Virus record (IMG/VR): IMGVR_UViG_3300010151_000154
Coordinates: 1-24,620 of that record
DNA length: 24,620 bases
Source of the DNA: a virus
Reading direction: 5' to 3' (one strand)
Shown here: positions 4,901 through 22,527 of the stretch, piece by piece
Layout of the letters: each line of letters starts with the position of its first letter
Numbering within the stretch: the first letter of the stretch is position 1
Program-made: the position numbers and the translations under genes
Notes under the pieces: model-generated
Database searches by the model: none
Told to the model about the DNA's origin: nothing
The model's input: only the letters and a program-made list of their open reading frames with translations

Positions 4901-7900
4901 ATGCCACCTATTTTTTGCGGCCCATGCAAGCCTTCGCAAATCGGAATGCAACCAATGATGCCTAGACAGTCTCATCCCTCTGAACTGTTAATGATTGAGC
5001 GCGCCAACAACGATATGTATAATATGATTAACACAGCATTCAATAATAACCTTGAAGGCTATAAGCCGATCATATTAGACGTCGGCGCCAGCCAGCGAGA
5101 ACTAGCCAACACGTTCAGAAATAGCGCCCCCGGTAAAATTGGAAAATCGATGGACATTAATTTGGGTATAGTCTCAATTCCTCTGGGGCTTTTTACCCAC
5201 GACCGAGAAAAAGCTCTTAGAGATTTTTCTGTGGCCACGGCAGCACTACATGACAAGTCACAGGGCGAAGTAAAGTTAGTTGCCGAAGGGCTTATAAAAG
5301 TGTTGGAAAGCGAGACGTCACCAATCAACATCGTCAAAGAAGACGAGGATTTTAATGTATTCGAATACGACGTACCAGGATCTCAAATCTTGATAATCAT
5401 GATGATCAATTATTCTGATAAGCAGGCCGCCTGGAAGGGCTATGTAGCCGACCCAAAGCAAATAAAAATTGTAGCCATCGATAGACTAGTAAATCGTGCC
5501 GTATACCAATGGCCGGACGATTCCCTTGTTAATGTTGACAAGCCAGAGCCCATAGAGCTTAGTAGCACAGACTTGGTAGAAGCACTTACTGAAAACTTAA
5601 TGGCCACTCAGCCAAGTTTACATTTTTCTGCTGGGTACCCGGCCCAAAAAGAAACATTTGAAAAACAATTTCCAATAATTACTAATCTTGTTTTTGAGAA
5701 TACGCTTAGAGGCGGGACATCACACGACCTCTTCCAAGCGCCGGTGTTTAATAAAATACCCCTCACCGACGCAGAAGTAGAAGAGACATGTATTGAGGGC
5801 GTCGGCGGAATTCCCCTTTTAAATATTGAAAAAATTTCGGAAGATACAGACAAAACACGACAAGCCCTGGAGTGCGTGATGAGTGCGTTTGCACAACCCA
5901 GCTCGAATCAGGTTGCAACTATTTTTGGATTATACAAGATATTGATGAAGGTATGCATAATCGAGGAATATTTGAAAAACATATTTGCCTTTGGTTTTTT
6001 GCGGGTGTCGGATGTGACCAGATCTCCAAGTTATATGAAATTAATTCAAGACAGCATTATTAATAGTGTCGACGCACTCGCCGGCCAAGACGGCTATAAT
6101 AAGCTGTTAGACTATTCAGGAAAAATTATAAACGGGCGCCAACAACTGGGAGATCCCTCTCTCTCTGAAAAAATATTAACTCCAGCGGCATGCCTTGATA
6201 TATTGATTCAGGAAGCGGCTGAAGAAGTCGACGATGTTTTAGACGCCAGAATACAAGGCATTGTGGATCCCAACTGGACAAAGAAGTTTTATGGGTTCGG
6301 TGAGGCAGATTCTCCCGAAGCCCAAGGCGCTATTATGGGCAGGCTCTTGGAATATGCTGTAAATTCATCACCAGAATATTGGTCTCCTGATTTATATCCC
6401 TTTGATGACGTGGATAACGATCCCCAAAAGCTTGGTAATTTAAAAGCCATGCGATTTTTAGGGCCCAATTCCGATACAGCCGGCGAATGGCCAATTGCGA
6501 GCGATGGTCTCGGTTGGCCAAAAAAAGGTTCTGAGCGCTGGGAAGGCGGCTTGTTTTTTCAGCCATACATGAGGGTTAAATCTAAAATAACCGATATGGA
6601 AGATTTTTGGAAAAAGTTCATACAAGCAGAAAAAGATACAAAACTAGTTTGGGATTCCCCCATCTCATCCGGTGAATACTCAGGCGCCAAGGACGAAGTT
6701 GATGCCGCCATAGACGTCCTATTAACAGGTATACAGGATGTACTAGACAATGGCGACGGATCAACTCACAAAGAAACAGTAAAGGAATTTTTTGATTTAG
6801 TTTTTAGACCTGAAGCTCAGGCCCCCGCGCACAAACTTCCATTTATGCGTATTGTCTCTTCCTTTTGGTCTCCAGACTCGTTAACGAATCCGGTATGGGA
6901 TGGCACCGATCCCTATTATTATTGGACCCCGCCACTTCCACCACCAGATCCCGATGATATCGGAAATCCCCCAATTGGAATATCTCCCTTTGGAGATATT
7001 CCACTACCACCAGAGGTGCCGAACAAGGACAACCCCGATCCCAATACGGGAACCCCTCCCAAGACAGAAGAAACACCACAGCCGTACACTTCTGCTATTA
7101 AAGGATCGATTCCGCCCTTGCGATGGCATTGGGCAAACAGGGGTGTTGTATCAACCCACCGCGTTGATAGACTTTCTGCTTACTATGATTCTGAGAGCAA
7201 AAAGTTACAGACACAAATTGCTACACTGGAAGCACAGATTGCAGCGGCCGGTGAGACGATCACCGAGCTGATGCCGTGGGGCGCCGATCTGCTGGCCGCC
7301 AAGGGCAAGCTAGCTAATCTTATTGGCCAGCCAATATCGAACCACTCATCACCCGAAGTCATCTATGAGGCGGACCTTTATGAAAGCACTCTCGCAATGT
7401 TCGGAGCCGTTAAAGAGTTAAATTTTTCTTCGACGGCAGGTTCTGGTTATGAGGGCAGCACTTCCGGAGAAGTCCTGTCAGCCACAGAGTCTCTTCTTCT
7501 TAAGCTAAAAGCAGGGATTGAGTTTTCCAAGGCGTCCACCGGCGCCGGCGACACCCTTGTGGCGGGCGAACATTATGACCAATTTGCAACAGCCTTCTGG
7601 AATAGAATAAGAAATATAATTTTTGATAGCCCTGCGTCTAGTTGGTTTGATTTTAAACTTGGAATGAGGCTAAATTCATTGACACCGTTTAAAGATGTAC
7701 CCGATTCGTTTTTTAGCAAGATTCATACAATGTACTATGATGATTTTGCCAAGTACAACGATGAAAAGACATTTATTTGGGAAGAGTCCGGAAATAAATA
7801 TTTTTGTTTTCCCATAGAACAAGCAGAATATGATGCGTACCAATTTTCAGCAGTCATAAACGATTATAATAGTACTTTAAGCATGGTCGACCCGGCGACG

Positions 7901-9424
7901 GGCACGCTGCAGACAGAGCTTGGTCCAAAAAGTGCAATACCAGAAGGATCATTACAACCTGAGCCGTCTTTGTGGGCCCTCGCAAGGTCTATAGACAAGG
8001 CACACTATGTTGATGGCGAAGGTATGCTAGATGGAATAAAAACAGAGTTAGCAAAAGTCACCGCGTTTGGTAAAGACAAAGACCCGGCCAATCCGACCCC
8101 CAACAAACTTTTAACCAATGTGGTGCCCCTTAAAGAACTAATAACAACAACCGCGCTATTTTATAGATATTACATGGAAGCGGCGTACCCCGATTTAATA
8201 ACATTGTTAGAGCCCACCAAAAATATGGTAACTCGCATAATTGCTGCTTACAGCGCGGCCGCCGAAGGGGATTACACATATATGGATTCTCTCTTGGAGG
8301 ACGCAACTCCGGGAGCAACTAGCCCTTCTCAATCCCCCACAGACGCGCAGCTGGCTAAAAAGTTTATGTTGTTGTTTGTTCAAATGGCCGCCAACATGTT
8401 TGACCCAACGTGGACAACCCCTTGGTTCCTTCCGGGCCCAATCACACCGATAGGCGTAGTGGCCAAAGCCCTATTAACTGACTGGTCCGATGACGATGAT
8501 AAAGACGATGATGCCGGAGATATCACGGAGCCGAAAGAAAAAGTATGCCCACCAAAAATACCAATAACAGCCCCAGAGCCATCTTTGGTTGAAGAGGGCA
8601 TAGGCCTTGAAGCGCTCACGGACCCACTAGGAGGAGAGGTGATTGACCCAGTGACCACCACAAATCCCACCGTAAGATACCTGTTGGTCTTTCCAGAAAA
8701 AAATTGGGCAAGATACGTCGCTGATTCCGCGGCCAGCAATCACGCCGCGGACTGGTACGGATTGTTCGATGTCGCCGGCCCTGGATCGTGGAGCTTTTCT
8801 TTGGGCATGCTTGCCAATGCGTTATCGGTCGGTCCCGAAGCGGACCCCACAAGTGAGATATGGTTCGCAGAAGGATCCTGGAGCTTATGGTTCGCAACGT
8901 ATGGAATTACAGGAACCTATTTGAAATTAATGGCGCCAAATGAAAAGGAGTACCAAGGAGTGGTAGTCAGTCCAACGCGTAAGCTTTGGCATCCGGATAA
9001 TAATCCACCGCCAGCCGGCGCATTCGATCCTTGTGGAGTAAATCCAGGTTTTCAATTCGGTGAAAAAGCGCGGACCATCGACGGCTATCTAACCGGGCCC
9101 GAAGTCCCCACAATCGACACCCCAAAGGCTTTCAGAGATAGCGTTTTTGATAGTATACAATGCTCTCCTTTGGGGGCGTGGCTCGGCCCCAAAAAATATA
9201 TGCACGCTAGCGGCCCCGCATTGGCGGTGACTTTATTAGAAGAGAACCCCTTCCCCGCTCCCTTTGTCTCCCGCGATTTCTCCGACGAGGGCTACAAAAC
9301 CATGCTCGAAACCTGCTCGCGAGATAATCCCTGTGACCTTGAAGGGACAGATTTATTAGAACTTTTGGGCGTTAAAAAAATCCCCCCCGAAGAATGGATC
9401 CCGGAGAGCACCGAACCCGGCTAA
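1973..9424 (+). CDS. Giant phage structural protein of unknown function (2483 aa)
   Basis: The family is not recognised. One uninterrupted 7.45-kb frame starts at ATG 17 bases after the previous stop, behind a weak AAGAGA (1962-1967). The N-terminal third looks mostly helical and charged. Around residues 730-752 is a hydrophobic run (LQILLGAVLVVLNHV) that could be one membrane or buried helix. Residues about 863-893 form an Ala/Thr/Gly/Pro-rich linker; CGPCKP occurs near 982. A strongly Pro-rich linker (PPLPPPDPDD and onward) spans about 1650-1705 and is followed near 1742-1767 by a short coiled coil (KKLQTQIATLEAQIAAA). An Asp-rich patch (DDDDKDDD) lies near 2172-2181, before a Trp/Gly-rich C-terminal region. 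The linkers suggest a modular protein of at least three blocks. A tape measure was considered but the Pro and Gly content argues against it. Its place between a spike-like gene and gp25 points to a baseplate or hub-associated virion protein. That is inference from position only. Confidence 0.7.
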   Translation: MAYTELEKELIKLYEKLKDSPEKGFVERIPAYLPATDDDMVEESFIPSLEDWLDPEKATPPGQSLHKAPPYAQETNESAQDYLIRLYKEYGLGSWWGAVYTDDPSIPPPRWYQETKTHLSKNGNYYIVPVVYERMTSNPALQKFLKDGKIQLYGAGGVLEDTAFLESAKSWALEKLAADLAKALSLQNRTDAKKVAFLPIDTVIWEKGIKTGEVAEAWYVEHRPEEFQNLFLKVMFDRSWVDSLALKANPCADVSNIKHTVMLFVETLEKDLIDLQNILYRFAGRMHEATEVQVDFDASCTAGKISAVSGILDGLLRLNDKPEISVQSPGAIQIAFDEEYKIQYVAYSDVPDCLCDEENMSAYMLKKGVENLKSLPPFDSSTVNALLYYLPDIIRKYSPYLSGAKSKYLFAAQESWVRFIKSYVFPVPEVVFDTSSTSEELFLDQIAAFETLSNSVTSLLKKGAYTRDPTVLLSPEARNLLKGIANGQTAYAGDDTMMGAIKSQVFSIKTLYNGLLNRVPVTALVKIAASAIIKCTGDNAIKKKLCRTILKGMPREDVETKLIPCLQTAGYVAAANKLRTTIGSRQELVYNKARARYPDKFGDLPASQAIQSEAEMAKVNGLYCADPAFQKMLGRPADDFSEEMLLWLEQQGDDQVCECIFNIYTPIEQLFDFAEDLADDAADIVDIFGQNKAQQIETTTTYPIKNTFTALKMFVTNRTGNFGDAFFGTLVKIYLQILLGAVLVVLNHVKSEYIGGLLRDACNVTANPFSKKSITNMIMSSPLHSDKSFQQLKSTVGKMTKMAGLAGEIQDIVAALEKLGEQFTPSEFKRLFTTPCNDDSFNDGFLKASLTFLAHDVTQSGATDGGGTPTDAATSADGTAPPLCPAPPSRQPSIGSVQTLLLNIGSLVDHAMFEELQEEHDKVTDIIIDLCDPESTAILAVPTDALERLAEKDADDLTNDILEMMPLLDPSKIEDMMPPIFCGPCKPSQIGMQPMMPRQSHPSELLMIERANNDMYNMINTAFNNNLEGYKPIILDVGASQRELANTFRNSAPGKIGKSMDINLGIVSIPLGLFTHDREKALRDFSVATAALHDKSQGEVKLVAEGLIKVLESETSPINIVKEDEDFNVFEYDVPGSQILIIMMINYSDKQAAWKGYVADPKQIKIVAIDRLVNRAVYQWPDDSLVNVDKPEPIELSSTDLVEALTENLMATQPSLHFSAGYPAQKETFEKQFPIITNLVFENTLRGGTSHDLFQAPVFNKIPLTDAEVEETCIEGVGGIPLLNIEKISEDTDKTRQALECVMSAFAQPSSNQVATIFGLYKILMKVCIIEEYLKNIFAFGFLRVSDVTRSPSYMKLIQDSIINSVDALAGQDGYNKLLDYSGKIINGRQQLGDPSLSEKILTPAACLDILIQEAAEEVDDVLDARIQGIVDPNWTKKFYGFGEADSPEAQGAIMGRLLEYAVNSSPEYWSPDLYPFDDVDNDPQKLGNLKAMRFLGPNSDTAGEWPIASDGLGWPKKGSERWEGGLFFQPYMRVKSKITDMEDFWKKFIQAEKDTKLVWDSPISSGEYSGAKDEVDAAIDVLLTGIQDVLDNGDGSTHKETVKEFFDLVFRPEAQAPAHKLPFMRIVSSFWSPDSLTNPVWDGTDPYYYWTPPLPPPDPDDIGNPPIGISPFGDIPLPPEVPNKDNPDPNTGTPPKTEETPQPYTSAIKGSIPPLRWHWANRGVVSTHRVDRLSAYYDSESKKLQTQIATLEAQIAAAGETITELMPWGADLLAAKGKLANLIGQPISNHSSPEVIYEADLYESTLAMFGAVKELNFSSTAGSGYEGSTSGEVLSATESLLLKLKAGIEFSKASTGAGDTLVAGEHYDQFATAFWNRIRNIIFDSPASSWFDFKLGMRLNSLTPFKDVPDSFFSKIHTMYYDDFAKYNDEKTFIWEESGNKYFCFPIEQAEYDAYQFSAVINDYNSTLSMVDPATGTLQTELGPKSAIPEGSLQPEPSLWALARSIDKAHYVDGEGMLDGIKTELAKVTAFGKDKDPANPTPNKLLTNVVPLKELITTTALFYRYYMEAAYPDLITLLEPTKNMVTRIIAAYSAAAEGDYTYMDSLLEDATPGATSPSQSPTDAQLAKKFMLLFVQMAANMFDPTWTTPWFLPGPITPIGVVAKALLTDWSDDDDKDDDAGDITEPKEKVCPPKIPITAPEPSLVEEGIGLEALTDPLGGEVIDPVTTTNPTVRYLLVFPEKNWARYVADSAASNHAADWYGLFDVAGPGSWSFSLGMLANALSVGPEADPTSEIWFAEGSWSLWFATYGITGTYLKLMAPNEKEYQGVVVSPTRKLWHPDNNPPPAGAFDPCGVNPGFQFGEKARTIDGYLTGPEVPTIDTPKAFRDSVFDSIQCSPLGAWLGPKKYMHASGPALAVTLLEENPFPAPFVSRDFSDEGYKTMLETCSRDNPCDLEGTDLLELLGVKKIPPEEWIPESTEPG

Positions 9425-9477: not shown

Positions 9478-9885
9478 ATGGCAGTTGGCTTTTCTCCAAA
9501 ATTACCGTTGCAGCCCGATCCTACTGATGGGTTTTTTAAACTCAACAAAACTTTAGGAGAAGTTATTAAACAAAATTTAAAAATGCTAATTCTGACAACC
9601 CCAGGAGAGCGCATGATGAACCCAGACTTTGGAGTAGGCGCCAGAAATTTTTTATTTGACACAAAAATAGGAACTTTTCAAAGCCTTAAGACTACAATAA
9701 TCACGCAAGTGCGACAATTTATTCCCTTTATCAAAATTATCGATATTCATTCATCTAATAAAAAGCGGGATGAAGCACAAATACATAATTATTCAGAAGA
9801 ACAACGCATGGGGCTTGTGGTTAATTATTATATTCCAAATTTAAATTTGAGAGATACTTTAAAAGTAACTGTTACTAGTGTTTAG
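9478..9885 (+). CDS. Baseplate wedge protein, gp25/GpW family
   Basis: The 135-residue length matches T4 gp25 (132 residues) and its relatives P2 GpW and type VI secretion TssE. The family signature is clear: a helix (LNKTLGEVIKQNLKMLILT), then PGER at 42-45 followed by MMNPDFG (46-52) and a hydrophobic LF pair, and a C-terminal beta region ending in VTVTSV. In this family the protein joins the wedge to the sheath-initiating ring of the contractile tail and has no lysozyme activity despite older annotation. It has a good ribosome binding site (AAAGGA) and is followed after 27 bases by the gp6-like gene, the usual W-J order. Assignment is from the motif and length; both are convincing. Confidence 0.9.
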   Translation: MAVGFSPKLPLQPDPTDGFFKLNKTLGEVIKQNLKMLILTTPGERMMNPDFGVGARNFLFDTKIGTFQSLKTTIITQVRQFIPFIKIIDIHSSNKKRDEAQIHNYSEEQRMGLVVNYYIPNLNLRDTLKVTVTSV

Positions 9886-9912: not shown

Positions 9913-11703
9913 ATGCCGAAGAAAAAACCATCTATAAACTATACGAGTCGCGACTTTAATTCAATCAGAGCGGATCTAGAATCTTACGTTAAAAGATATT
10001 ATCCGGACAATTACAAAGACTTTACAGAAGCTTCTTTTGGCTCTCTAATGCTAGATACGGTTTCCTATATTGGGGATATGCTATCTTTTTACGTCGATTA
10101 TCAAACTAATGAATCATTTTTGTCTACCGCAATGGAGTTTGATAATGTATTAAAACTAGGCGGAGAACTTGGATATAAGTATAGACCTTATCCGTCTTCT
10201 TTCGGTACGTGCAACTTTTATGTAACCGTTCCCGCCGAATCAAATTCACCAGCACCAGACGATAACTATAAGCCCGTTTTAAAGAAGGGTTCAACTTTTA
10301 ATTCCACCGCAGGTACCATTTTTACACTTTTAGAAGATGTCGATTTTTCAAAGAGCACCAATCCAATCCTGGTTGCTTCGCAGAACTCCTCAACGGGCCT
10401 CCCACTTACTTATGCCGTGCGCGCCGCAGGCCAAGTTGTTTCTGGCGAGTTAGCTGTGCAGGAAGTATCTCTCGGAGAATTTCAAAAGTTTTTAAGAATA
10501 GCTGTAAACGGACAGAATATTAGTGAAATAATTTCTGTGTTTGATGATAACGGAAACCAGTATTTTGAAGTTGACTATCTCACCCAAAATGTTATATATG
10601 TACCAATTTTAAACAAAGGAAGCAATTCTAGTACAGTTCCTTACATAATAAAACCTGTAGCTGTTTCTCGAAGATTTATGGTCGAAAGCACGCCAACCGG
10701 AATGTTTTTGCAATTTGGTTATGGTAGCGAAGAGACACCAGTAGAACTTAAAGACCCGGCAGAGGTTGTGTTGCAATTGCATGGCAAAGATTATTCCTCT
10801 GACACTTCATTTGACCCCTCTGTACTAAATGAAACAGACAAGCTTGGCGTCGCCCCTGCAAATACCACTTTAACAATAATTTACAGAATTAATACTACTG
10901 AAAATACAAATTCGGCGGCCGGCACAATAACTTCTGTACATGCCGCTGATTTTCAGTTTGCCAGCTCAGAAGCTCTAACCACAAGTAAGAAAAATCGAGT
11001 AATTGGTAGTCTTTCGGTTATGAACGAAGAGCCAATTGTGGGAGATGTAACTTTAGTATCTTCAGATGAAATCAAAACACGCGCGCTTGGAAACTTTGCC
11101 GCACAATACCGGGCAGTGACAAAACAAGATTATATTAATATAGCCTATAACATGCCAGCAAAATACGGGAAGATCAAAAGGGGTACCATCGAATTAGATT
11201 CCGATTCCTACAATCAGCGCAATTTAAATATGTACGTCATCTCGGAAGACTCAGATGGTAACTTGGTCGAAAGCAATAGCGCGCTAAAAAACAACTTAAA
11301 GACTTGGATCAATCGATATAGAATGATCAACGACACGGTTGATATATTAGATGCTAAAATTGCTAATATTGGCATAGATTTTAAAGCTTCAACATTCCCC
11401 GGCATTAATAAATATGATGTTTTAAACGACTCTGTAAGGGCACTTCAGGTAGTTTTTGATAAGACGTTTTATATTGGAGAGCCCCTTTTAATAACAGACA
11501 TATATCAAATCTTAAAAACAGTACCAAACTTAATGGATGTTATAGACGTGCAGATTACATTAAAAACTGGAGCATCGTATGCCGATTCTCCCATAAACAT
11601 TGAAGAAGCAATGTCTGCCGACGGAAGATTTATAATTGCGCCAGTGGATACAGTTTTTGAAGTCAAGTTTCCAAATGCAGATATAGCAGGAACAATAGTA
11701 TAA
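9913..11703 (+). CDS. Baseplate wedge subunit, T4 gp6/P2 GpJ family (Baseplate_J-like)
   Basis: The protein has 596 residues (T4 gp6 has about 660). Its N-terminus carries the motif chain typical of T4-like gp6 proteins: INYTSRDFNSIRADL, YYPDNYKDFTEASFGSLMLD, then YIGDMLSFYVDYQTNESFL and a following helix (about residues 8-95). A long beta-rich middle part follows. Near residues 385-426 is the Baseplate_J-like core segment with RAVTKQDYINIAYNMP and a KYGKIKRG turn. The C-terminus again looks alpha/beta (VFDKTFYIGEPLLITDIYQIL). In contractile tails this protein forms the iris-like ring of the baseplate, with two copies per wedge joined by one gp7/GpI. It follows gp25 and its stop overlaps the next start (TAATG). 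The whole chain is intact. Function comes from the known family; the assignment is strong. Confidence 0.92.
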   Translation: MPKKKPSINYTSRDFNSIRADLESYVKRYYPDNYKDFTEASFGSLMLDTVSYIGDMLSFYVDYQTNESFLSTAMEFDNVLKLGGELGYKYRPYPSSFGTCNFYVTVPAESNSPAPDDNYKPVLKKGSTFNSTAGTIFTLLEDVDFSKSTNPILVASQNSSTGLPLTYAVRAAGQVVSGELAVQEVSLGEFQKFLRIAVNGQNISEIISVFDDNGNQYFEVDYLTQNVIYVPILNKGSNSSTVPYIIKPVAVSRRFMVESTPTGMFLQFGYGSEETPVELKDPAEVVLQLHGKDYSSDTSFDPSVLNETDKLGVAPANTTLTIIYRINTTENTNSAAGTITSVHAADFQFASSEALTTSKKNRVIGSLSVMNEEPIVGDVTLVSSDEIKTRALGNFAAQYRAVTKQDYINIAYNMPAKYGKIKRGTIELDSDSYNQRNLNMYVISEDSDGNLVESNSALKNNLKTWINRYRMINDTVDILDAKIANIGIDFKASTFPGINKYDVLNDSVRALQVVFDKTFYIGEPLLITDIYQILKTVPNLMDVIDVQITLKTGASYADSPINIEEAMSADGRFIIAPVDTVFEVKFPNADIAGTIV

Positions 11704-13232
11704 TGGCCATTAAAAGATATACAGCAGATGCTGATACAACAATAACAAATGCCTACAAAGCAAACTTGTCCACCCGCGGCGTGAGCGGCAACATGGGACA
11801 ATCAGATATTCTTGAAGTTTTTTCAATCTATGCTCAAGCTTCGACAGCCTCATCGGAATTAGAAAGAATATTGATTAAATTTCCTGTAACTGGCACTAGC
11901 GCCGGCTATATTTCTTATGATAGATCCCAAGGGGACATTCCATCATCAGGCAGTGTGTCCTTTTATTTAAGATTGTTCAATGCTGAGCATTCACAAACTA
12001 CCCCTAAAAATTATAATTTAGTAGTTGACCCCGTTTCCCAGAGCTGGGATGAGGGCCTTGGGCTGGATATGGAAGAATATTCTGATGAAGACGCGTCCAA
12101 CTGGATTACCGCTAGCATCGATGGAAGCACCTCCACCCTTTGGTCCACCGCCGGCGGCGACTATCTGATAGATTCTTCCTCTTCTTTTACTGCTTCTTTC
12201 ACCACGGGCTTCGAAGACATGGAGTTGGATATCACCACCCTAGTTGAACAGTGGATAAGTTCTAGCAACAACAACCAAACTGATTTTGATATGGGGCAGA
12301 AGTCAAATTATGGTGTTGGCGTGCATTTAAAAAGCAGCGAAGAAAGCGCCACAAAGTCTTATTATACTAAAAAGTTTTTTGCAAGAGGATCACAATTTTT
12401 CTTTAAGCGCCCAGTTATTGAAGCTCGTTGGGATTCTTCCAGAAAAGATAATAGAGGAAGTTTTTATTACAGCAGCTCGATGGCACCCGCCGCGGATAAT
12501 TTAAATACAATCTATCTTTACAATTATGTTCGTGGTCAACTAAAAAATATTCCCGGTATCGGCGCGAGCGACCCTATATATGTCAGCCTCTATTCAGGCT
12601 CGGCCGCCAATTCGTCACCATCCGGCTCAAAGCTATTGTTAAGCACCGGCGGCACAGTAGACTCAGGCGATCTTTATAATGCAACAGGCGGCTTTGTGGC
12701 CACGGGAATTTATTCAGCTTCTCTTGCCTTTACGGGCTCTGGTTCGTTAACGAAAGTGTTTGATGTGTGGCACAGCAGCAGTGTTGAGTATTTTAGTGGC
12801 ACAATAGATCCAAAGAATTTAACCCAAACTTGGCCCGGGCAAGCTTTTAACCCGAGCCAACAATATGTGTCTAAAATTACAAACTTAAAATCTTCATATA
12901 CTACTAAAAATAAAGCGTCGCGCATGCGATTATATACGCGTAAAAAAGACTGGAATCCCAACATCTATAGCGTTGCGTCAGCAGTTGCTCCTATCGATTT
13001 GGTTGACGATGCTTATTATAAATTAATTCGTGCTACTGACGGCTTTGAGATAATTTCTTATGGCACCGGAAGCGACAATAACACAAGACTGTCTTATGAC
13101 GCTAGTGGCAGTTATTTTGATTTAGACATGTCAATATTAGAGGCAGATTCTTCATATACAATTAAATTTATTTATTATCTTAACGGTCAATATGCCGAAC
13201 AGCCCGAAGAATTTACATTTAGAGTAGAATAA
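11703..13232 (+). CDS. Beta-rich virion protein with DNRLRE-like N-terminal domain
   Basis: The protein has 509 residues. Its ATG overlaps the stop of the gp6-like gene by one base (TAATG), with AGGA at 11688-11691, so it is probably translationally coupled. Residues about 4-190 resemble the DNRLRE-type jelly-roll domain of secreted and surface proteins: ADADTTITNAY near the start, then an SELERILIKFPV strand, then a Gly/Ser-rich strand pair and WDEG at 115-118. A second part (about 250-509) is rich in Ser, Gly, Tyr and Thr with alternating strands, and ends in two Ig- or FnIII-like strand runs (SSYTIKFIYYL and EEFTFRVE). No signal peptide is seen, as expected for a virion protein. It sits between the two wedge components, so it may be a wedge-bound accessory or receptor-facing protein. 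The DNRLRE likeness is a pattern judgement; the function is inferred. Confidence 0.55.
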   Translation: MAIKRYTADADTTITNAYKANLSTRGVSGNMGQSDILEVFSIYAQASTASSELERILIKFPVTGTSAGYISYDRSQGDIPSSGSVSFYLRLFNAEHSQTTPKNYNLVVDPVSQSWDEGLGLDMEEYSDEDASNWITASIDGSTSTLWSTAGGDYLIDSSSSFTASFTTGFEDMELDITTLVEQWISSSNNNQTDFDMGQKSNYGVGVHLKSSEESATKSYYTKKFFARGSQFFFKRPVIEARWDSSRKDNRGSFYYSSSMAPAADNLNTIYLYNYVRGQLKNIPGIGASDPIYVSLYSGSAANSSPSGSKLLLSTGGTVDSGDLYNATGGFVATGIYSASLAFTGSGSLTKVFDVWHSSSVEYFSGTIDPKNLTQTWPGQAFNPSQQYVSKITNLKSSYTTKNKASRMRLYTRKKDWNPNIYSVASAVAPIDLVDDAYYKLIRATDGFEIISYGTGSDNNTRLSYDASGSYFDLDMSILEADSSYTIKFIYYLNGQYAEQPEEFTFRVE

Positions 13233-13233
13233 T

Positions 13234-16200
13234 ATGAGCACAGACTACAAAAAAATATTTGGTCAAAAAGATATTATTTTGACACAAGTTGATAGAGACA
13301 CTTTAGCTTCTGAGGCCGAATCTGTTGAATACATGTTTGAGTATTTCAACAGAAAACAAAGATTTATTCCTCCTGTTGACTTTACTAAGCCAAAATATTT
13401 TGCTAGATTTGGGTCCGCTGAAAAATATTATATCGACTCTATCGAAAGAGTTTATGAAACATATCCTTATGATGGCTCACTAAAAGAAAGAATACAGTGG
13501 GAATTAAGTTCCTCTTATTTAGATCTCCATTTATTTGAAAATGAATACCCTAGAACTAATGGGTATGTTATATTTTCTGCTGATGGCTGGGGCACTTTAA
13601 GCTCAACCAATAGTGGCTACGGGCAGCCCGCGTCGTCGGAATACATCTTCATCAAAGGAGGTCCACACACCTCTCAGCGCAGCAAAGAAAAAGATATCCA
13701 AGACACAGATGGAACTTATAAAAGCGGTTACGCCAACATTTGGGATCCGGATAAGAACAGAGAATGTAATTTAAAAATTGGCGGTGTTACTGGGAACACT
13801 GTTGAGTTTTGGATGAAAAAGAGTGAATTTGTTAAGACGCTAACTGGCCGCGAAGTAATATTCGATCTTTATACAAGCGAGTATATCTCTTCTAGCGATA
13901 ACTACGGGCGCCTCACAATTGAAATGACAGGCACAACGAGCGCCTCTCCATTCAGGGTTACATATATGTCGGGGACTGCTGGGTTTTCGTATGAAACCAT
14001 CGGATCTTCGATTACTACATCTTCTGTCGCGGATGACGCATGGCACCATTATGCATTTGCTTTTAAAAATAGCGGCAGTGTTGTGGAAACTAGCTTGTTT
14101 GTTGACGGCGCCTGCAATGAAACAGTTTTTACTGGTTCCGCCGTTAATAATGTTAGCGGCAACCTAAACGCAACCATCGCTGCATTAGCTGCAGCCCCAT
14201 CTGGCACCTTTACACCCGCCGTCGGCTGGGGCAAACTTTCTGGATCACTAGACGAATTCCGCTTTTGGAAAGCCCAACGTACCTCTCAGCAAATTGGCCG
14301 ACAAATGATTGAGCCTGTTGGTGGCGGTACGAATACGGATGATGCAAATACTACCTTGGGGGTATACTATAAGTTTAATGAAGGCATCACATTGACCGCC
14401 TCCACCGATCAAACTATTTTAGATTATTCTGGCAGAATAAGTAATGGTACTTTTGAGGGCTATAATTCCGCGGCGCGCAGCACGGGCTCGGCCATGGTTG
14501 ATTCGGGCAAGGTTAATAACGAGTTCAAGGACCCAATCCTTTATAGTTTCCACCCAGACGTGCTGTCCCTTAGAAAAACACGACAAGATGAAGGCCGCAT
14601 ATATGACTATTCCAATAATGCATCAATATACCATTCGCTGCCAACTTGGATTATAGAAGAGGATGAAGTTAGAGAACACTCTCCATTAAGAAATCTTACA
14701 CAAATTATTGGTAGCTACTTCGACACCTTAGCCAGCCAGATAGAATCTATACCGAAGTTCAAGCAAAAAAATTATTTAAGCTCCAGCTTCAAGCCATACC
14801 CCTTCGCAGACAGATTATTAGAATCTGTAGGCTTTTCATATTTCCCTGAATTGTTTTCGGATGCGACCGCACTTCAACATTTTAGAAATAGAGACGATGT
14901 ATCTCTCTTTAAACAAAAACTATATGATGTAAAAAACCGCATATACCAAAATATTTATAATAATATTGTTTATATATATAAAACAAAAGGAACAGAAAAA
15001 TCTTTTAGAAACCTTATTCGCTGCTTTGGATTAGATGACGAAATATATAAAATTAATACATATGGCAATCGCACGACTTACCAATTAAAAGATAATTATA
15101 CATCAGTAGCAGAGTTTAAAAAATATGCTAATTTCTCGTTAACTACCACTAAAAACGCAGTAGTATTTCCGTTTTCATCAAGCACCAATCCGAACTCTAC
15201 ATCATTTATTTCTGCTAGTCTGGGAGACGCTTTAGAGACCACTGGCGGCCTCGCCCTTACAATGGAGACTGAAGTAGCATTTCCGCGACGACACAGCCTC
15301 GCGGCCTCGAATACGGTAGTTCAAGCTGGGACGGGCAGTAGTAAATCTTTTAGAGCATTTTCGCCATTTAAAACAGCGTCCCTTTTTGGAATGCATCAAG
15401 TTGAGGGCACTACTGAGAACAATTTGACATGGGCAGCCACTGATTATGCAAATTTTCAAGTTTATGCGATAAGAGATACCGAATTTTCAAAGAGATGTCA
15501 ATTTGTGTTGACTGGAACAGCAGACTCCGTTATACCCACGCTCAGCAGTAGCTATTTTAATGCCGTTTTCGACGATACTCGATGGAATTTTTCTGTAGCA
15601 ATAAAACCAACAAAGTATCCCGAAGCAATGCTCCCAAGTGGATCCAGCGGATCGACATGGGATGTAGAATTTTATGGTGTAGAAAAAGTACTTGATATTG
15701 TAAAAAACGAATTTTTTGTAACATCCTCAATCACTACGATGCAGGGTACTCGATTTATGACAAACCCGAAGAGCGTCTATATCGGTGCACACCGCACCAA
15801 TTTTTCTGGGGGACTGCTACAAAGCTCAGATGGAAACATCTCTTCAACGCGCGTGTGGATGACTTATATCCCAACTGGCACAATAAAGCAGCACGCACAA
15901 GACGTAAAAAATTATGGCAGTCCAAACCCTTATAAGAGTGCGTATTTGTACCAGACGACCATGTCCGGAACGCGAGTACCAGAAATCCACACACTGGCTT
16001 TAAATTGGGAATTTAGCACCCTAACCACATCAGACGCTAGCGGCGAGTTTGTTGGTCATGACTTTTCTTCTGGGTCTACAAGCCTTCAAAACCGTTATAA
16101 CTGGATTGGCAATATCATAGGAAAACAATATTTACCAAAAGGATATGCATTCCCAACCGACTCTTCGAGTTCTATTAATAGAAAATATATCTATTCTGCC

Positions 16201-19200
16201 AAAAAACAATTACCAGAAATGGTTAATAGCTCAGACATGGTTAATATTTTGGAAGAAGACGACAAGTTTTTTAATAAAGTTAATTTGGCGCGCCCCACGA
16301 ATTATTATATGTATATTGAAAAAAGTATGTATCAGACCATATCTGAAGAAATGATAAAAATATTTTCATCGATCAAAGATTTTAATAATTTAATCGGAGA
16401 GCCAGTAAATAAATATCGAGACAATTATAAACACATGGAGAAACTCCGCGGCCTGTTTTTCGAGAGAGTCGGCAACACGGCTGATTTAGATAAATATATT
16501 GATTTTTATAAATGGGTTGATCAAACATTAGATTCGCTTCTTGGCAATTTAGTGCCCGCCTCCGCAGATATTAGTGATCAATATGGTAGTAATATTCGGA
16601 CGTTGGTAGAAAGCCATGTGCTGGAAAGAAATAAATATAAATGGCAGTACCCGACACTTGAAGACAAAACACCATCGGCAATTGAAGGGCACGTGCTTGG
16701 AATTAATGAGCTTACTTATAATTGGAAATTTGGCCATAGCGGCAGCGATCAGGGTCAGAAATGTCGCTGGTGGAAAGAAAGGGCAGAAAGAACAGATGCG
16801 TTGTCCAGCGGGGACACAAACATTGACAACGATAAACAAACAATATTAGATTCAATTAATAATGAAACAAATGCCAGTGATTATACTTTATACGACAACG
16901 CGAACAGCACAGCTTATTCTGGATCGACATATGCAATACGTCGTTTGGCAAAACCGTATAAGTTTGATGTGCGCGACACCAGAGCAATAAAAGGCGGTAT
17001 AAATTTTCACCCAAACAAAAAAGTCACTTACTATAAAGAAACTATGAAGCGTTTCGAACCCAACGAAATTGAGCCCTACATCGTCGTCGAAACATATAAT
17101 TTACCCGGGTGCGCGGATGATCTTTCTGGTTCAAATAAAGTAATTAAATTCCCGCTAGATGCAAACAACGCTAGTTTTAACCTGGACACTTTTAACAGAG
17201 CCCCCGGCAGCTTGCTGGCGCCTTTTAATATTATTAGCTCTTCTGTCGGGCCTCAAACGGGCTTGAGAGATCTTAGATCTGATGCAACACTTACCAACAT
17301 ACATCATGATGTTTATGGTCCGGACTATGAACATCCAATGCAAGGGCCTTTTACTGAAAAACATATTGGCGGAAATCAACATAGACACCACCCCGTAAAT
17401 ATCGGAAGCGATGAGCACCCAAACCGCGGTGAAGCGTGGTCTATCGATCAAGAAGGCGGCGCTTTGTCGGAGAATGGTGTAACTCTTATAAATCCTTTAA
17501 TCTCACAGGCGGATGGCGTAGGGTTGCAACTTCCAGATCCAAATTTACCGCGCGCAGTTTTCTTTAGAGAACCAATGGCCAAGCGCCCTGTAAATATTAG
17601 AAATATTCAGCAAGTAACAGGGTCTAGAATACTTGGCAATTATGTTAAAGATTATGAAATATTAATGACATCTGGTCGTTCAATTAATAATCGTTATTTT
17701 GTTAAAAACGAAGGAGTCTCTGGAAGCGCAGGTAACGTATTTGCCGTAAGCGGCGTTTTAGATTATAATCTACCCGGCGGAGCAGCCTCTACGGTTAACC
17801 GAACACAGGTAGTAAAAAATGGTGTAACTTCTTCTGTGCGCAATGACTATATTATTGTAAATAGATTTTCTGCTCCCGGCGACCCATCTACCATGGGATT
17901 AGGTTTCTTAGACATTGAATCTCAAGAATATTCAATTTATAATGCATTGCCATGGCGTAATTTAATTGTCAGAGAAAGTTTACATGAACTGTTTATTGAC
18001 CACACTAAACAGTTCGGCTTTTTCAGTGACGCTCAGAACTCAGCTAGTTGGGTATTGGCAGGTGAAACCTATCCCGGTACTAGCGGCTCAGTATCGGCAG
18101 CTAACTATGAAGGTAGCGCGTCCTTTCATAAGGTCAATAGAAATCCCCGACGCGTAATTAAATATAATGGAACTGGCGACGCGTCGCCCGTAGTGACGGG
18201 CACAACTTACGATAATTGGTATGTACAACATCAAATTCCACAAACAGATTTGCAATATGCTTGGATTACGTCAAGCATAGTTAGTGACTATACAGGGTCA
18301 GCACTTTTTGGCTTCGAACAGCCAAATTTTGACAACGCAAGCTTGGCTTCTACGGATATTACATTTTGTAGTGCTAGTGATTTTGGCGCATATTATGCCT
18401 CCGGCGATCCCCCCAACTGGGGGAAAACACGAGCCCTCGCCGGCGGCTTTGTTCCAACAGACTTTGTAGGAATAAATGCGAGTATATATGATCCTATTTC
18501 TGGAAGCGAAAATATTTTAGGATATCCAGCGAACCTGTCTGTATTAAATTACTTGAATTACGGCGCGCCAGATGGGACTACCACCGACGGCGATGACGCC
18601 TCGCCTCGTGCCGGCGGCTTCATTAATGAGTTCTCTTCGGAGAACAAAACACAAGTTTTAAATTCTCTTATTCTCCACCGCCAAGGGCCCTGTGGCTGGC
18701 CTTCATGGAAACAAACTAGAGGTGGCGAGCATCCTGTTATTCGCTCACACAGAAAAGAAAATCGGCTTTCATTTGCGAAAAATATTTCAATTGATAGCCA
18801 CGGTACGTTTGATCCACCCGCCCAAGGCTGGCGGAATTGGATCGATATTGGCGGAAAAAATCGAGATATTTTAGTATCCCAAATCGAACCGCCACTCTCT
18901 TCAAAATTCAAGCCGGTCACGCACAATTTACAAATTAAGACATCGTGGGGAGAAACACCAAACACAAACAAGATTAAAGTTCGCCATTCTTATGGAAACG
19001 AAAAAACCAATTTCCCCCAGAAAGTATTAGGGTCCATAGACTTGAATAAAGTAGACTATATCTATGTACCAGCCGGCCAAGCCGGCCAATTAATAAGCGA
19101 CCACCCAAAAACATTAATTTACGATTCTTTACATAAATTTATCACAAAACCAAGTACTGCAAATCCAATAGAAGAGTTTATCAATTTACAAATTGAAGAA

Positions 19201-22200
19201 ACAATCTATCCTCGTGAGCACTATACATATTTGAAAAGTACTAGACAGCGCGACAATTTTGCAAACAGCTTCTGGCGAGATACAAGAAACGCTAGAAACA
19301 CGGACTTGATGACAGACAGGCCAAACTCACAAGGCCCAACAGTCTCTCAAAGTATGTGGCCACTAGACGGCCGGTCAGACACATCGGCAAAGACTTTAAC
19401 CTCATCTTATGGTATCGAGGGGGAACTTCAAAATGGGTATAGTTTGTTCTTTTCGCCATCTGATATTAATGCTGACTTCCGGTCGCCAATGGCCGCGGCG
19501 ACTTATGCTCGTCGAATACCTGAGAGCCACTCCAATGAAAACGTGAATGTTATTTTTGCCGGGGACACCGCATGGGAAGCCGCCACACAAGCAGGTGTAA
19601 ATCCTTTTTATAATGATTATGCTTCATACGTTGAGGAGTTAAAAAGGATCGGCAAAGACTATGGGATTGTACCAGAATATAGAATTAGTGAACAAATGAA
19701 CTATCTCTGGACTCAAATTACAGGCACCTCGCATGACTTTGATAATCCACCAACGTCAACGGCCTATCTCACGCTGACAGGCTCTACGCTTAGTAGTAGT
19801 GGCGATAACACCTTTTATACAGTATACACGTATAGTGATTTCATGAAACACTTTAAGGAGGTACAAGACGACGGATTACAGTACGGAGCGGTACCAACAG
19901 AGTTAACACTTGAGTGCGAAGCATTAATTAAGTTCTTGCCATATGATGGGTTTTATCCGGCCCAAAGAACAGTACAACTAGCAGAATTGTTTAGTCAATC
20001 TTACGGGCCCACCACCGAGTTAGCAGGAGATGATGCTAATTGGAGAACTGCCATGGCGCCCCTTTTCTCTCCTGGCATATTGTACAATTCAATTAAATCT
20101 GGCATCGCAGTTGATTATCCGATTGCCACTGGGTCTGTAGGACATAATCTTTTTGTTACTGGAGCAATGCCTGCAGGTGGTTTTACAACCGATACGCGCG
20201 ACGACGGAGACCCACGCCTAAGTGGTACCTTCGATTACAGAGTGCCCTTTGAAGCCTTAATTGACCCACTCGATGCAAATTTCAGTCAAGTTATAGACAC
20301 AGAACCACATCCATCCGCGTCTATTGACAGCACCGCTAGTTTCAATAGTGCGCACACGCCCCTTTATGGGTATGCTATAAATAACTTTTTGGCAGAAGTA
20401 CCATCATTCTTTTTAAAGAACGGCGCCCTGACTTCGTTGACATCGGGCAAAGACATTAACACCATAACCGCTACACCTAATACTGATTACAAAATGAGAA
20501 TTGCCTGTAATAATGGAAAGGTTATGGTGAAGGAGCTGTTCACAGATTATCCCGGCGCTCTGTCCTCATCACGACACGCGCAAACACCATCTTTTATTTA
20601 TAACAGACCAAGAACAGTCATGTATAATAGATCGTTCAACACATCTAGCGGCGAAGATTTCACGTTACGCCACGTAGGTAAAAAAAGCCGTACGATATCC
20701 TACGGGTCGTCCTTTGGGCCTCCTTGCGATGCACCATATCGCGATGGCCCGACATTATTGTCAGAATCCCATTTCGATGCATTCACGCCCCCTTATTACA
20801 ATGGCTATAGTCATATTGAATTAACATTCCGCTCGGGAATGGATGGGAAAATGAACATATCAGATATTAAAGGCGCACTCACGCCATCTCAAATTTCTGT
20901 TTTTAGGGAAACGACAAGAGAATCTGGTTCGGGAGAGGGCACGTGCGCAGGAAGAAGCGCCATGTCTATTACTGCGTCTTTGAACTGGGGCCAAGTTGTA
21001 AGCACCGATGACCCGATAAGTGGAGAACCTGGCGCCGGCGGCGACAGATGGGTGATACAGCCTAAGTGGGAATGCCCCATACTAGATTTTAACAGTTCTA
21101 GTATCACACTTCCGACTTACGGATCTGGCTCAGTAGCCAAAGGAATGTGGCACCAATACTCATCCGTTGTTCCAGGGAGCATGAATTCTATATATATGAG
21201 TGTACAAGACGTACCTGGGTATCCAGAAGAGCAATCCTTAAGAAAACTATTAGGTTTTAATACCACTAATAGTTGGGCATCACTTGGCCTTCCCGCACAA
21301 AAAAAGACAATTAGCGAAGCGGTTGTGGCAATTCCATTTTGGCCCGATACTCACGCTGTTACTACCGGCGGAAAAAACTTTTTTGACATTGACATTAATA
21401 CAATTAAATGGGCAGAGCAATTGATAGATATGAAAAAGGGTGGCTTTCTTGGCAAAAAAGCAGAAGCGGAACTCATGAGTACTTGGTATTTAGATGGTCA
21501 GATCAACCCCGAAGTATTAGAATTTAAGCCGGCCAAAAGCGCTATTGACATGGTTAGGACAATGAAAAAGTATGTTATTCCGCCTCAATTTGATTTTTTA
21601 CGACCTGGCGCACAAATAAATCCTTTTGCAATGTTTATTTTTGAGTTCGAAACAACACTTACGAGAAACGATTTAATAAACATTTGGCAGAATCTATCAC
21701 CGAACGACCCCAAAAACCCGTCGATAAATAACAAAAGCTTAAGCCACTCGGTAACTAAAAGGGCGACAGCACCGTTCGGTTGGCCAAACAAGAAAGGCCT
21801 CAATTTGTTAAAGCGCAAAGATTTGCTTCAGGAGGCAAAGAATAACAACGATAGCAATTGGAAAGGGTTTGATTTGCTAAATGAACGCCCAGCAGAAGGG
21901 ACAACCGACGATATAACTTCTCCACTTCCAGATCCGGCAGATAACACGAATCTCCCCTTCCCGTCCGAGATACAGTGGTTAGTTTTTAAAGTAAAACAAA
22001 AAGCAAAAACTAATTATTATGACTTGACGGCCACAACTTCTGATGATGATAATGAGGGTAGCAACATTCCATATTATAGCTTTAACTGGCCATATGATTT
22101 TTTCTCTTTGGTCGAGATGATTAAAATAAATGCGGCATACAAATTAGAAAGTGATCCTACGAGCCCATATGAACTGGGCCCACCGCTAGATCCCAACGCC

Positions 22201-22527
22201 CCAGAAGAAGAGATTATTATGAATTCGGATGACGAAACCGGTATACCGTTTAACCCCTTTGCTGCCGGCAGCAAGCAAGCTTCTAACAATATCGCCACTA
22301 CCGCCGCCACCACGCTCCCAACGCCGGGAACCGTGTCAGAGTTTAATCTAAACAAAGCCGCCGCAGGCCCACTCGGCGCGCGCCCCTCCGGCACAAAAAA
22401 GAAAATTACTTTTAATGCAGCTACGTTAGCAAACATTAAGTACATTCCCGCGGTATTGCCTCCAAAGACTGGGAAAGGCAAGCGAAATCAAAAAGATAAA
22501 ACGGGCCCCAAAGGCGGTAGAAGTTAA
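13234..22527 (+). CDS. Giant baseplate-type protein (3097 aa) with LamG-like domains and a GpI/gp7-like segment
   Basis: One intact 9.3-kb frame begins one base after the previous stop without a clear ribosome binding site, so coupling is likely. Residues 1-110 (FGQKDIILTQVD, YFNRKQRFIPPVDF) form a conserved-looking N-terminus. About 177-355 is a LamG/concanavalin-like domain: VEFWMKK strand, WHHYAF at 270-275, and DEFRFW at 340-345 followed by KAQRT. About 439-608 resembles the P2 GpI/T4 gp7 wedge part: LPTWIIEED near 469, then helices, then KGTEKSFRNLIRCFG at 585-599. A second, weaker concanavalin-like region lies at about 675-900 (ETEVAF, WNFSVAIKP, RVWMTYIPTG). Residues about 998-1146 are helical and charged. 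The long remainder, to about 3000, is beta-rich, Ser/Thr/Gly/Tyr-rich and unrecognised. The end is an Ala/Thr/Pro linker and a Lys/Arg/Gly tail (from about 3005). T4 gp7 has about 1030 residues, so this would be an expanded version. The LamG part is fairly sure; the gp7/GpI part is supported by motif and by position after gp6. Confidence 0.65.
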   Translation: MSTDYKKIFGQKDIILTQVDRDTLASEAESVEYMFEYFNRKQRFIPPVDFTKPKYFARFGSAEKYYIDSIERVYETYPYDGSLKERIQWELSSSYLDLHLFENEYPRTNGYVIFSADGWGTLSSTNSGYGQPASSEYIFIKGGPHTSQRSKEKDIQDTDGTYKSGYANIWDPDKNRECNLKIGGVTGNTVEFWMKKSEFVKTLTGREVIFDLYTSEYISSSDNYGRLTIEMTGTTSASPFRVTYMSGTAGFSYETIGSSITTSSVADDAWHHYAFAFKNSGSVVETSLFVDGACNETVFTGSAVNNVSGNLNATIAALAAAPSGTFTPAVGWGKLSGSLDEFRFWKAQRTSQQIGRQMIEPVGGGTNTDDANTTLGVYYKFNEGITLTASTDQTILDYSGRISNGTFEGYNSAARSTGSAMVDSGKVNNEFKDPILYSFHPDVLSLRKTRQDEGRIYDYSNNASIYHSLPTWIIEEDEVREHSPLRNLTQIIGSYFDTLASQIESIPKFKQKNYLSSSFKPYPFADRLLESVGFSYFPELFSDATALQHFRNRDDVSLFKQKLYDVKNRIYQNIYNNIVYIYKTKGTEKSFRNLIRCFGLDDEIYKINTYGNRTTYQLKDNYTSVAEFKKYANFSLTTTKNAVVFPFSSSTNPNSTSFISASLGDALETTGGLALTMETEVAFPRRHSLAASNTVVQAGTGSSKSFRAFSPFKTASLFGMHQVEGTTENNLTWAATDYANFQVYAIRDTEFSKRCQFVLTGTADSVIPTLSSSYFNAVFDDTRWNFSVAIKPTKYPEAMLPSGSSGSTWDVEFYGVEKVLDIVKNEFFVTSSITTMQGTRFMTNPKSVYIGAHRTNFSGGLLQSSDGNISSTRVWMTYIPTGTIKQHAQDVKNYGSPNPYKSAYLYQTTMSGTRVPEIHTLALNWEFSTLTTSDASGEFVGHDFSSGSTSLQNRYNWIGNIIGKQYLPKGYAFPTDSSSSINRKYIYSAKKQLPEMVNSSDMVNILEEDDKFFNKVNLARPTNYYMYIEKSMYQTISEEMIKIFSSIKDFNNLIGEPVNKYRDNYKHMEKLRGLFFERVGNTADLDKYIDFYKWVDQTLDSLLGNLVPASADISDQYGSNIRTLVESHVLERNKYKWQYPTLEDKTPSAIEGHVLGINELTYNWKFGHSGSDQGQKCRWWKERAERTDALSSGDTNIDNDKQTILDSINNETNASDYTLYDNANSTAYSGSTYAIRRLAKPYKFDVRDTRAIKGGINFHPNKKVTYYKETMKRFEPNEIEPYIVVETYNLPGCADDLSGSNKVIKFPLDANNASFNLDTFNRAPGSLLAPFNIISSSVGPQTGLRDLRSDATLTNIHHDVYGPDYEHPMQGPFTEKHIGGNQHRHHPVNIGSDEHPNRGEAWSIDQEGGALSENGVTLINPLISQADGVGLQLPDPNLPRAVFFREPMAKRPVNIRNIQQVTGSRILGNYVKDYEILMTSGRSINNRYFVKNEGVSGSAGNVFAVSGVLDYNLPGGAASTVNRTQVVKNGVTSSVRNDYIIVNRFSAPGDPSTMGLGFLDIESQEYSIYNALPWRNLIVRESLHELFIDHTKQFGFFSDAQNSASWVLAGETYPGTSGSVSAANYEGSASFHKVNRNPRRVIKYNGTGDASPVVTGTTYDNWYVQHQIPQTDLQYAWITSSIVSDYTGSALFGFEQPNFDNASLASTDITFCSASDFGAYYASGDPPNWGKTRALAGGFVPTDFVGINASIYDPISGSENILGYPANLSVLNYLNYGAPDGTTTDGDDASPRAGGFINEFSSENKTQVLNSLILHRQGPCGWPSWKQTRGGEHPVIRSHRKENRLSFAKNISIDSHGTFDPPAQGWRNWIDIGGKNRDILVSQIEPPLSSKFKPVTHNLQIKTSWGETPNTNKIKVRHSYGNEKTNFPQKVLGSIDLNKVDYIYVPAGQAGQLISDHPKTLIYDSLHKFITKPSTANPIEEFINLQIEETIYPREHYTYLKSTRQRDNFANSFWRDTRNARNTDLMTDRPNSQGPTVSQSMWPLDGRSDTSAKTLTSSYGIEGELQNGYSLFFSPSDINADFRSPMAAATYARRIPESHSNENVNVIFAGDTAWEAATQAGVNPFYNDYASYVEELKRIGKDYGIVPEYRISEQMNYLWTQITGTSHDFDNPPTSTAYLTLTGSTLSSSGDNTFYTVYTYSDFMKHFKEVQDDGLQYGAVPTELTLECEALIKFLPYDGFYPAQRTVQLAELFSQSYGPTTELAGDDANWRTAMAPLFSPGILYNSIKSGIAVDYPIATGSVGHNLFVTGAMPAGGFTTDTRDDGDPRLSGTFDYRVPFEALIDPLDANFSQVIDTEPHPSASIDSTASFNSAHTPLYGYAINNFLAEVPSFFLKNGALTSLTSGKDINTITATPNTDYKMRIACNNGKVMVKELFTDYPGALSSSRHAQTPSFIYNRPRTVMYNRSFNTSSGEDFTLRHVGKKSRTISYGSSFGPPCDAPYRDGPTLLSESHFDAFTPPYYNGYSHIELTFRSGMDGKMNISDIKGALTPSQISVFRETTRESGSGEGTCAGRSAMSITASLNWGQVVSTDDPISGEPGAGGDRWVIQPKWECPILDFNSSSITLPTYGSGSVAKGMWHQYSSVVPGSMNSIYMSVQDVPGYPEEQSLRKLLGFNTTNSWASLGLPAQKKTISEAVVAIPFWPDTHAVTTGGKNFFDIDINTIKWAEQLIDMKKGGFLGKKAEAELMSTWYLDGQINPEVLEFKPAKSAIDMVRTMKKYVIPPQFDFLRPGAQINPFAMFIFEFETTLTRNDLINIWQNLSPNDPKNPSINNKSLSHSVTKRATAPFGWPNKKGLNLLKRKDLLQEAKNNNDSNWKGFDLLNERPAEGTTDDITSPLPDPADNTNLPFPSEIQWLVFKVKQKAKTNYYDLTATTSDDDNEGSNIPYYSFNWPYDFFSLVEMIKINAAYKLESDPTSPYELGPPLDPNAPEEEIIMNSDDETGIPFNPFAAGSKQASNNIATTAATTLPTPGTVSEFNLNKAAAGPLGARPSGTKKKITFNAATLANIKYIPAVLPPKTGKGKRNQKDKTGPKGGRS
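19072..19089 (+). repeat. Perfect 9-base tandem duplication inside the 3097-residue gene
   Basis: GCCGGCCAA occurs twice in direct succession and encodes AGQAGQ in frame. It is too short to suggest a repeat domain and is probably a local slippage event. Confidence 0.6.
22511..22517 (+). promoter_or_regulatory. Ribosome binding site inside the end of the giant gene
   Basis: AAGGCGG lies 9 bases before the ATG at 22527, which itself shares one base with the preceding stop (TAATG). It supports that start and coupled translation. Confidence 0.45.

Follow-up and report, generated by a model that had tools for sequence, protein, structure and literature searches.

In bacteriophage T4 and Vibrio phage XM1, the wedge unit of the baseplate combines a pair of gp6-type subunits with a single gp7-type subunit (PMC10457771). 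In XM1, the gp7 equivalent holds the tail spikes through an internal loop and through its tail end, and movement of the spikes has been proposed as the trigger of contraction (PMC10457771). The wedge protein Gp119 of Bacillus phage Vp4 carries carbohydrate-binding modules and binds and decorates host cells (PMC11406892). In the extracellular injection system AlgoCIS, the wedge protein Alg11 contains two carbohydrate-binding modules, and the exposed gp7-like part of Alg12, which has been termed a hotspot of re-engineering, holds the tail fibres (PMC8894135). Concanavalin-type domains have already been noted in pelagimyophage structural proteins, and a survey of pelagimyophages and cyanophages reported gp7 as absent and replaced (PMC7029224). 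Among cyanophage proteins labelled "baseplate wedge initiator," gp7 of Prochlorococcus phage P-HM1 (PHM1_087) is about 4446 residues long (13,341 bases), and Syn1_094 has 3274 residues.

Here we analyzed 24,620 bases recorded from an uncultured virus (the window, taken at its full length), which encode a 3097-residue protein downstream of genes for gp25-like and gp6/GpJ-like wedge proteins. On the evidence presented below, this protein is probably a gp7/GpI-class wedge subunit of an uncultured marine T4-like phage, with two LamG insertions and a fused C-terminal module. Giant gp7 proteins, in cyanophages, and wedge-borne carbohydrate-binding modules were already known; LamG domains inside a gp7-class protein are what is new here, insofar as no title or abstract found in a limited literature search described them.

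The window protein resembles the giant cyanophage gp7 proteins in that it follows gp25 and gp6, is very long, and contains a KGT helix that aligns with theirs (E = 1e-5). In contrast, the core of cyanophage gp7 lies at the extreme N-terminus, and Syn1_094 has a YHYH domain and no LamG match. The gene for T4 gp7 likewise comes after that for gp6, and its product has a KG helix that aligns and extra domains around the core, although these are of other kinds (fn3 before the core, domains V and VI after it) and the direct profile match is weak (E = 0.0065). P2 GpI (Tail_P2_I) also shares the KGT helix, aligned over 50 to 72 columns with the 50-column match exceeding the shuffled controls, but it is a core-only protein of 176 residues whose Pfam model does not match the window protein. 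Vp4 Gp119 shares the placement of binding-type modules on a wedge protein but is of the BW3 type (like A511 gp105), carries a different family of binding modules, and belongs to the Herelleviridae (PMC11406892). AlgoCIS likewise has elaborated wedge proteins; however, it is an injection system, and its binding modules reside in Alg11 and not in the gp7-like part (PMC8894135). Separately, both Syn1_094 (record L085, positions 16837 to 26661) and P-HM1 gp7 (L192, from 5902 onward) have a stretch of their own between two N-terminal core blocks, and as read from these sequences, the giant cyanophage gp7 is another wedge core with an insert.

Gene order and domain architecture

The features of the locus are as follows; the residue numbers are those of the 3097-residue protein.

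9478 to 9885, + strand: gp25-like wedge protein/sheath initiator (PF04965 [GPW_gp25], E = 4e-9; phrog_261, E = 8e-13)
9913 to 11703, + strand: gp6/GpJ-like wedge protein (phrog_219, "baseplate wedge subunit," E = 2e-19)
11703 to 13232, + strand: DNRLRE-like gene between the gp6 and gp7-like genes (NF033679, E = 8e-4, below the cut-off)
13234 to 22527, + strand: 3097-residue probable gp7-class wedge protein with fused C-terminal module; open reading frame (ORF) without an internal stop
13291 to 13548, + strand: N-terminal helical block (residues ~20 to 105), common to phages without LamG domains
13555 to 14529, + strand: LamG1, LamG/pentraxin-like domain (residues 108 to 432), by Pfam and structural match
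14539 to 15093, + strand: first half of the wedge core (residues 436 to 620), with the KGT helix at residues 563 to 600 (14920 to 15033)
15094 to 16218, + strand: LG2, second LamG-like beta-sandwich (residues ~621 to 995), between the two core halves
16324 to 16668, + strand: second half of the wedge core (residues 1031 to 1145), with the family motif (V/I)E(P/S)(N/H)xLER(S/N)K
16789 to 17190, + strand: variable linker (residues ~1186 to 1319), where relatives have a gene split or extra sequence
17191 to 22173, + strand: C-terminal module (residues 1320 to 2980), conserved, of no known family and a separate gene in some relatives

The 5' to 3' order is that of a wedge operon, namely gp25, gp6, the DNRLRE-like gene, and the 3097-residue ORF, which adjoins gp6/GpJ with a single 509-residue gene intervening. 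Distant relatives of that intervening gene product occur in Microcystis phage Mel-JY01 and Flavobacterium phage immuto (BLASTP E values of 3.5e-5 and 0.001). An earlier note, made from the letters of this DNA, had expected the gp7/GpI partner behind the gp6/GpJ and DNRLRE genes and had read it as one 3097-residue chain, and both statements agree with the genes identified upstream and with the uninterrupted ORF. The second core half, the C-terminal module with its occurrence as a gene of its own in some relatives, and the shared N-terminal block were absent from that note.

Relationship of the probable wedge core to gp7 and GpI

A scan of viral contigs with residues 433 to 622 yielded 424 relatives, 80 of which were fetched. 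Residues 1 to about 1185 form one conserved module, over which the relatives are 41 to 75% identical to the window protein. The core motif reads IYKTKGTEKSFRNLIRCFGL, in which KGT corresponds to residues 585 to 587. Mean identity was 0.54 in the first core half and 0.59 in the second and reached 0.79 in the KGT helix, the best-conserved part of the module. The second half aligns across all three clades, represented by the window, the Mel-JY01 type, and the immuto type. Each of six relatives on contigs of 131 to 201 kb has a major capsid protein of the T4 type (PF07068) together with a single gp6, indicating that the group is T4-like.

A tblastn search with residues 1 to 899 found no match among 50,697 phage records. 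Distant orthologues were reached via the gp6-like neighbour gene, whose product has full-length relatives in cultured phages. In this way, we identified orthologues in Mel-JY01 (1336 residues; core hhalign E = 4e-9), immuto (1265 residues; E = 3e-14), a phage grown on Flavobacterium sp. LMO8, and LR756508, a 484-kb uncultured phage record (1400 residues; E = 2e-8). The proteins of immuto and Mel-JY01 share with the window protein an orthologous core and a matching gene position. However, the immuto protein is without any LamG domain, the Mel-JY01 protein has an LG2-like region and lacks LamG1, and both chains stop long before they would reach the length of the C-terminal module. The N-terminal block is also common to these proteins: its motif, VDFxxPxxFARFGSAEK, has the counterpart xVDYxEFxNFVxYSSAEE in the Mel-JY01 and immuto types, and hhalign aligned the two over 19 columns with an E value of 1.2e-4 and a score of 29.3, versus at most 22.2 in 60 shuffles.

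The family profile of the core was compared with profiles of accepted members of the class. The match to the cyanophage gp7 profile had an E value of 1e-5 over 35 columns, with a score of 42.2 versus 21.7 for the best of 100 column shuffles. The comparisons with T4 gp7 and P2 GpI, which the earlier note had proposed, gave E values of 0.0065 over 19 columns and 0.012 over 50 columns, and both scores exceeded all 100 column shuffles (25.3 versus a best of 23.7 and 22.3 versus a best of 20.5, respectively). Such weak direct values are to be expected because the accepted homologues T4 gp7 and P2 GpI, compared in the same set-up, themselves give an E value of only 0.33. The cyanophage and T4 gp7 profiles match each other with an E value of 5e-6. 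The KGT helix was aligned in all four profile comparisons, and a short block preceding it occurs in matching order in the family and in cyanophage gp7, with a weak score (E = 0.0028). By these comparisons, the KGT-helix core is homologous to known members of the gp7/GpI class.

Profiles were required for this result: single-sequence hhalign comparisons of the core with T4 gp7 and P2 GpI were not significant, and none of the gp7/GpI models of Pfam, PHROG, and NCBIfam matches the window protein. The second core half had no match to the gp7 or GpI profiles compared. The idea that this half corresponds to the PAS-containing end of GpI found no support. In the AlphaFold model of residues 1 to 1185, LamG1 and LG2 were confident and the core from residue 510 on was mostly below a pLDDT of 50; the structural-match lists for this model were filled by LamG chains and named no gp7, which is uninformative about the core, as the core was modelled at low confidence. 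A model of the immuto-type core built from 99 sequences was helical, with a mean pLDDT of 49.6 and a pTM of 0.23. Low model confidence may occur in a subunit that folds together with gp6.

In the six relatives on long contigs, searches with PF09684 (Tail_P2_I), PF21428 (above the cut-off), and phrog_17744 detected no second gp7/GpI, the finding that the earlier note had named as a refutation. This result is to be read in light of the facts that all three models also miss the window family, that phrog_17744 gave nothing in the control genomes, and that the window covers just a 24.6-kb part of its own genome. Since the profiles match known members and the gene order is that of a wedge operon, it is likely, by remote homology, that the core belongs to the gp7/GpI class. 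The earlier note had placed a tail protein I core at residues 439 to 608; its KGT helix and its class are supported by the profiles, but its extent is now residues 436 to 620 together with the second half at 1031 to 1145. Outside close T4 relatives, gp7 is hard to recognise, and the alignment and signature obtained here now make the probable gp7-class core recognisable across a large marine group of uncultured viruses, in which one scan yielded 424 relatives, and link this group to cultured Flavobacterium and Microcystis phages.

LamG insertions and the C-terminal module

In the window protein, LamG1 is matched by PF13385 at residues 187 to 354 (E = 3.2e-8), and the same model was found in 32 of 34 relatives; the domain is present in all 42 relatives aligned. 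The predicted domain, residues 108 to 432, matches LamG/pentraxin folds with VIA-align Z scores of 19 to 20 over 217 aligned residues. The best matches were PAPP-A chains (Z of about 20; rmsd of 3.0 to 3.2 over 217 residues), and 4dqa, a putative carbohydrate-binding protein of Bacteroides, was also matched (Z = 19.6). Both profile and predicted fold thus assign LamG1 to the LamG/concanavalin A-like fold. A LamG domain had been claimed for residues 177 to 355; the domain holds, and its boundaries are considerably wider. Its closing segment has 63% mean identity, and its strand parts have a mean identity of 0.43.

LG2 is predicted to be a beta-sandwich, mostly with good confidence, in the AlphaFold model of residues 1 to 1185, and two-domain LamG chains align structurally over residues 108 to 971, covering both LamG domains together. 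Its profile matches that of LamG1 weakly (E = 0.007; score of 28.2 versus at most 22.2 in shuffles), the corresponding region of Mel-JY01 matches LamG1 with an E value of 7e-5, and the window copy has no Pfam match. Mean identity in LG2 is 0.40. No glycan-binding site was identified in the LamG domains.

The second core half at residues 1031 to 1145 places LG2 inside the core. The concanavalin-like region that had been described at about residues 675 to 900, following the core, is predicted to be a sandwich as proposed, with different boundaries and in a different position. In immuto, the core halves are only about 80 residues apart (583 to 665), versus more than 400 in the window protein, and the stretch from the N-terminal block to the core is short too. 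Because immuto lacks both LamG domains, and Mel-JY01 and LR756508 have the LG2-like region and lack LamG1, both domains are insertions into the wedge protein, as the earlier note had suggested in speaking of domains inserted around the wedge core. By alignment, the insertion point of LamG1 lies behind the N-terminal block and ahead of the core, and that of LG2 lies between the core halves. The LamG regions are the most variable parts of the module (mean identity of 0.40 to 0.43 versus 0.54 to 0.79 in the core), and additional LamG-like domains are inserted near residue 281 in relatives L031 and L037 and at residue 655 in L032.

Other inserts were seen in two relatives. In window numbering, L066 carries beta-rich inserts behind residues 302 and 729, and L032 carries one behind residue 736. 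These inserts resemble each other and sit in LamG1 or LG2 of different relatives, as if they were a mobile domain.

The C-terminal module comprises 1,660 residues and had no match in Pfam (window copy), the PHROGs (three separate copies), or the PDB; tblastn with residues 1320 to 2980 found no phage record. When the N-terminal and C-terminal profiles were compared with the sequences in the PDB, all matches were at chance level. In five relatives (L031, L058, L059, L061, and L068), the counterpart of residues 1 to 1185 is encoded alone, with the remainder in a second gene wherever the record extends far enough; the wedge ORF and the C-terminal module ORF of L061 overlap by 8 bases. The split falls near residue 911 in L022 and L023 and further on in L072. 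A fused or split state could be assigned to 53 records, including the window; of these, 45 are fused and 8 are split, and the core tree needs at least three changes between the two states. The fusion to the wedge protein makes it most likely that the C-terminal module serves as a peripheral part of the baseplate or in receptor binding. Two split relatives showed further peculiarities: in L058 (12647 to 18636), several ORFs are inserted between the separate wedge and C-terminal module genes, and in L061, the separate C-terminal module gene (12414 to 18785) encodes five FG-GAP repeats (PF14312, E = 2e-42), another adhesion-type insert.

Possible roles, alternative readings, and neighbouring genes

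On the reading that we favour, residues 436 to 620 and 1031 to 1145 would most likely join two copies of the gp6-like protein encoded by the adjacent gene in a wedge heterotrimer. By analogy with T4 and XM1, LamG1, LG2, and the C-terminal module would then occupy the outer side of the baseplate ring and serve either in surface binding or as docking sites for fibres. The LamG domains may contact surface glycans, including those of the host, or other proteins, and such contacts could exert a direct pull on the wedge from which sheath contraction starts. The most far-reaching form of this proposal holds that, throughout this large T4-like marine group, the wedge subunit itself contains the receptor-sensing lectins, placed at two points of the chain, that glycan binding acts directly on the (gp6)2-gp7 unit that triggers contraction, with no separate fibre lever, and that the C-terminal module represents a previously undescribed class of peripheral baseplate components. 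We regard this combination as rather unlikely.

The LamG domains of a gp7-class wedge protein could also be structural, bracing neighbouring wedges or holding tail fibres and the C-terminal module with no host contact. The constant presence of LamG1 in the 42 aligned relatives and its strongly conserved closing segment fit such a role, and there are precedents in the loop and tail end of the XM1 gp7 equivalent, which hold tail spikes (PMC10457771), and in the gp7-like part of Alg12, which holds tail fibres (PMC8894135). However, the LamG strands diverge faster than the core, several lineages have acquired whole extra LamG-like domains, and the Vp4 wedge protein with its carbohydrate-binding modules does bind cells (PMC11406892). 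We give a purely structural role a real chance, if a little short of an even one. Natural versions differ in the number of LamG domains (none, one, or two) and in whether the C-terminal module is fused or separate, and they provide a set for testing wedge-borne lectins in adsorption.

Two other readings dispute the wedge protein itself. The protein might contain no wedge core, being instead a large tail-fibre protein or adhesin of the tail periphery that happens to adjoin gp6, with KGT arising by chance; the failure of every standard family model and the lack of a gp7/GpI match for the second core half would suit this. Against it stand the cyanophage gp7 match, with its score of 42 versus at most 22 in 100 shuffles, the exceptional conservation of the KGT helix, the LamG-free orthologue that keeps the core at an equal gene position, and the failure to detect another gp7/GpI in the six relatives, and we consider a chance resemblance improbable. 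The eight relatives with the parts as separate ORFs might raise the suspicion that two genes were joined into the 3097-residue chain by an assembly or frame error, but the ORF continues through the junction in the other 45 decided records, from many independent contigs, and that of the window has no stop codon; an artefact is thus barely credible.

The remainder of the window contains further large or weakly matched ORFs. Immediately upstream of gp25, positions 1973 to 9424 encode a 2483-residue protein with no match in Pfam or PHROG, and in some relatives this position is occupied by shorter ORFs of ~1370 to 1675 residues. Downstream, the product of positions 22527 to 23588 belongs to no known family, and over its first ~43 residues it matches the beginning of a 211-residue protein encoded downstream of the Mel-JY01 gp7-like gene (E = 5e-4). 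At the open 5' end, the product of positions 1 to 921 has weak similarity to the penicillin-insensitive murein endopeptidase family PF03411 (E = 0.005, below the cut-off) and is perhaps a tail-borne cell-wall hydrolase.
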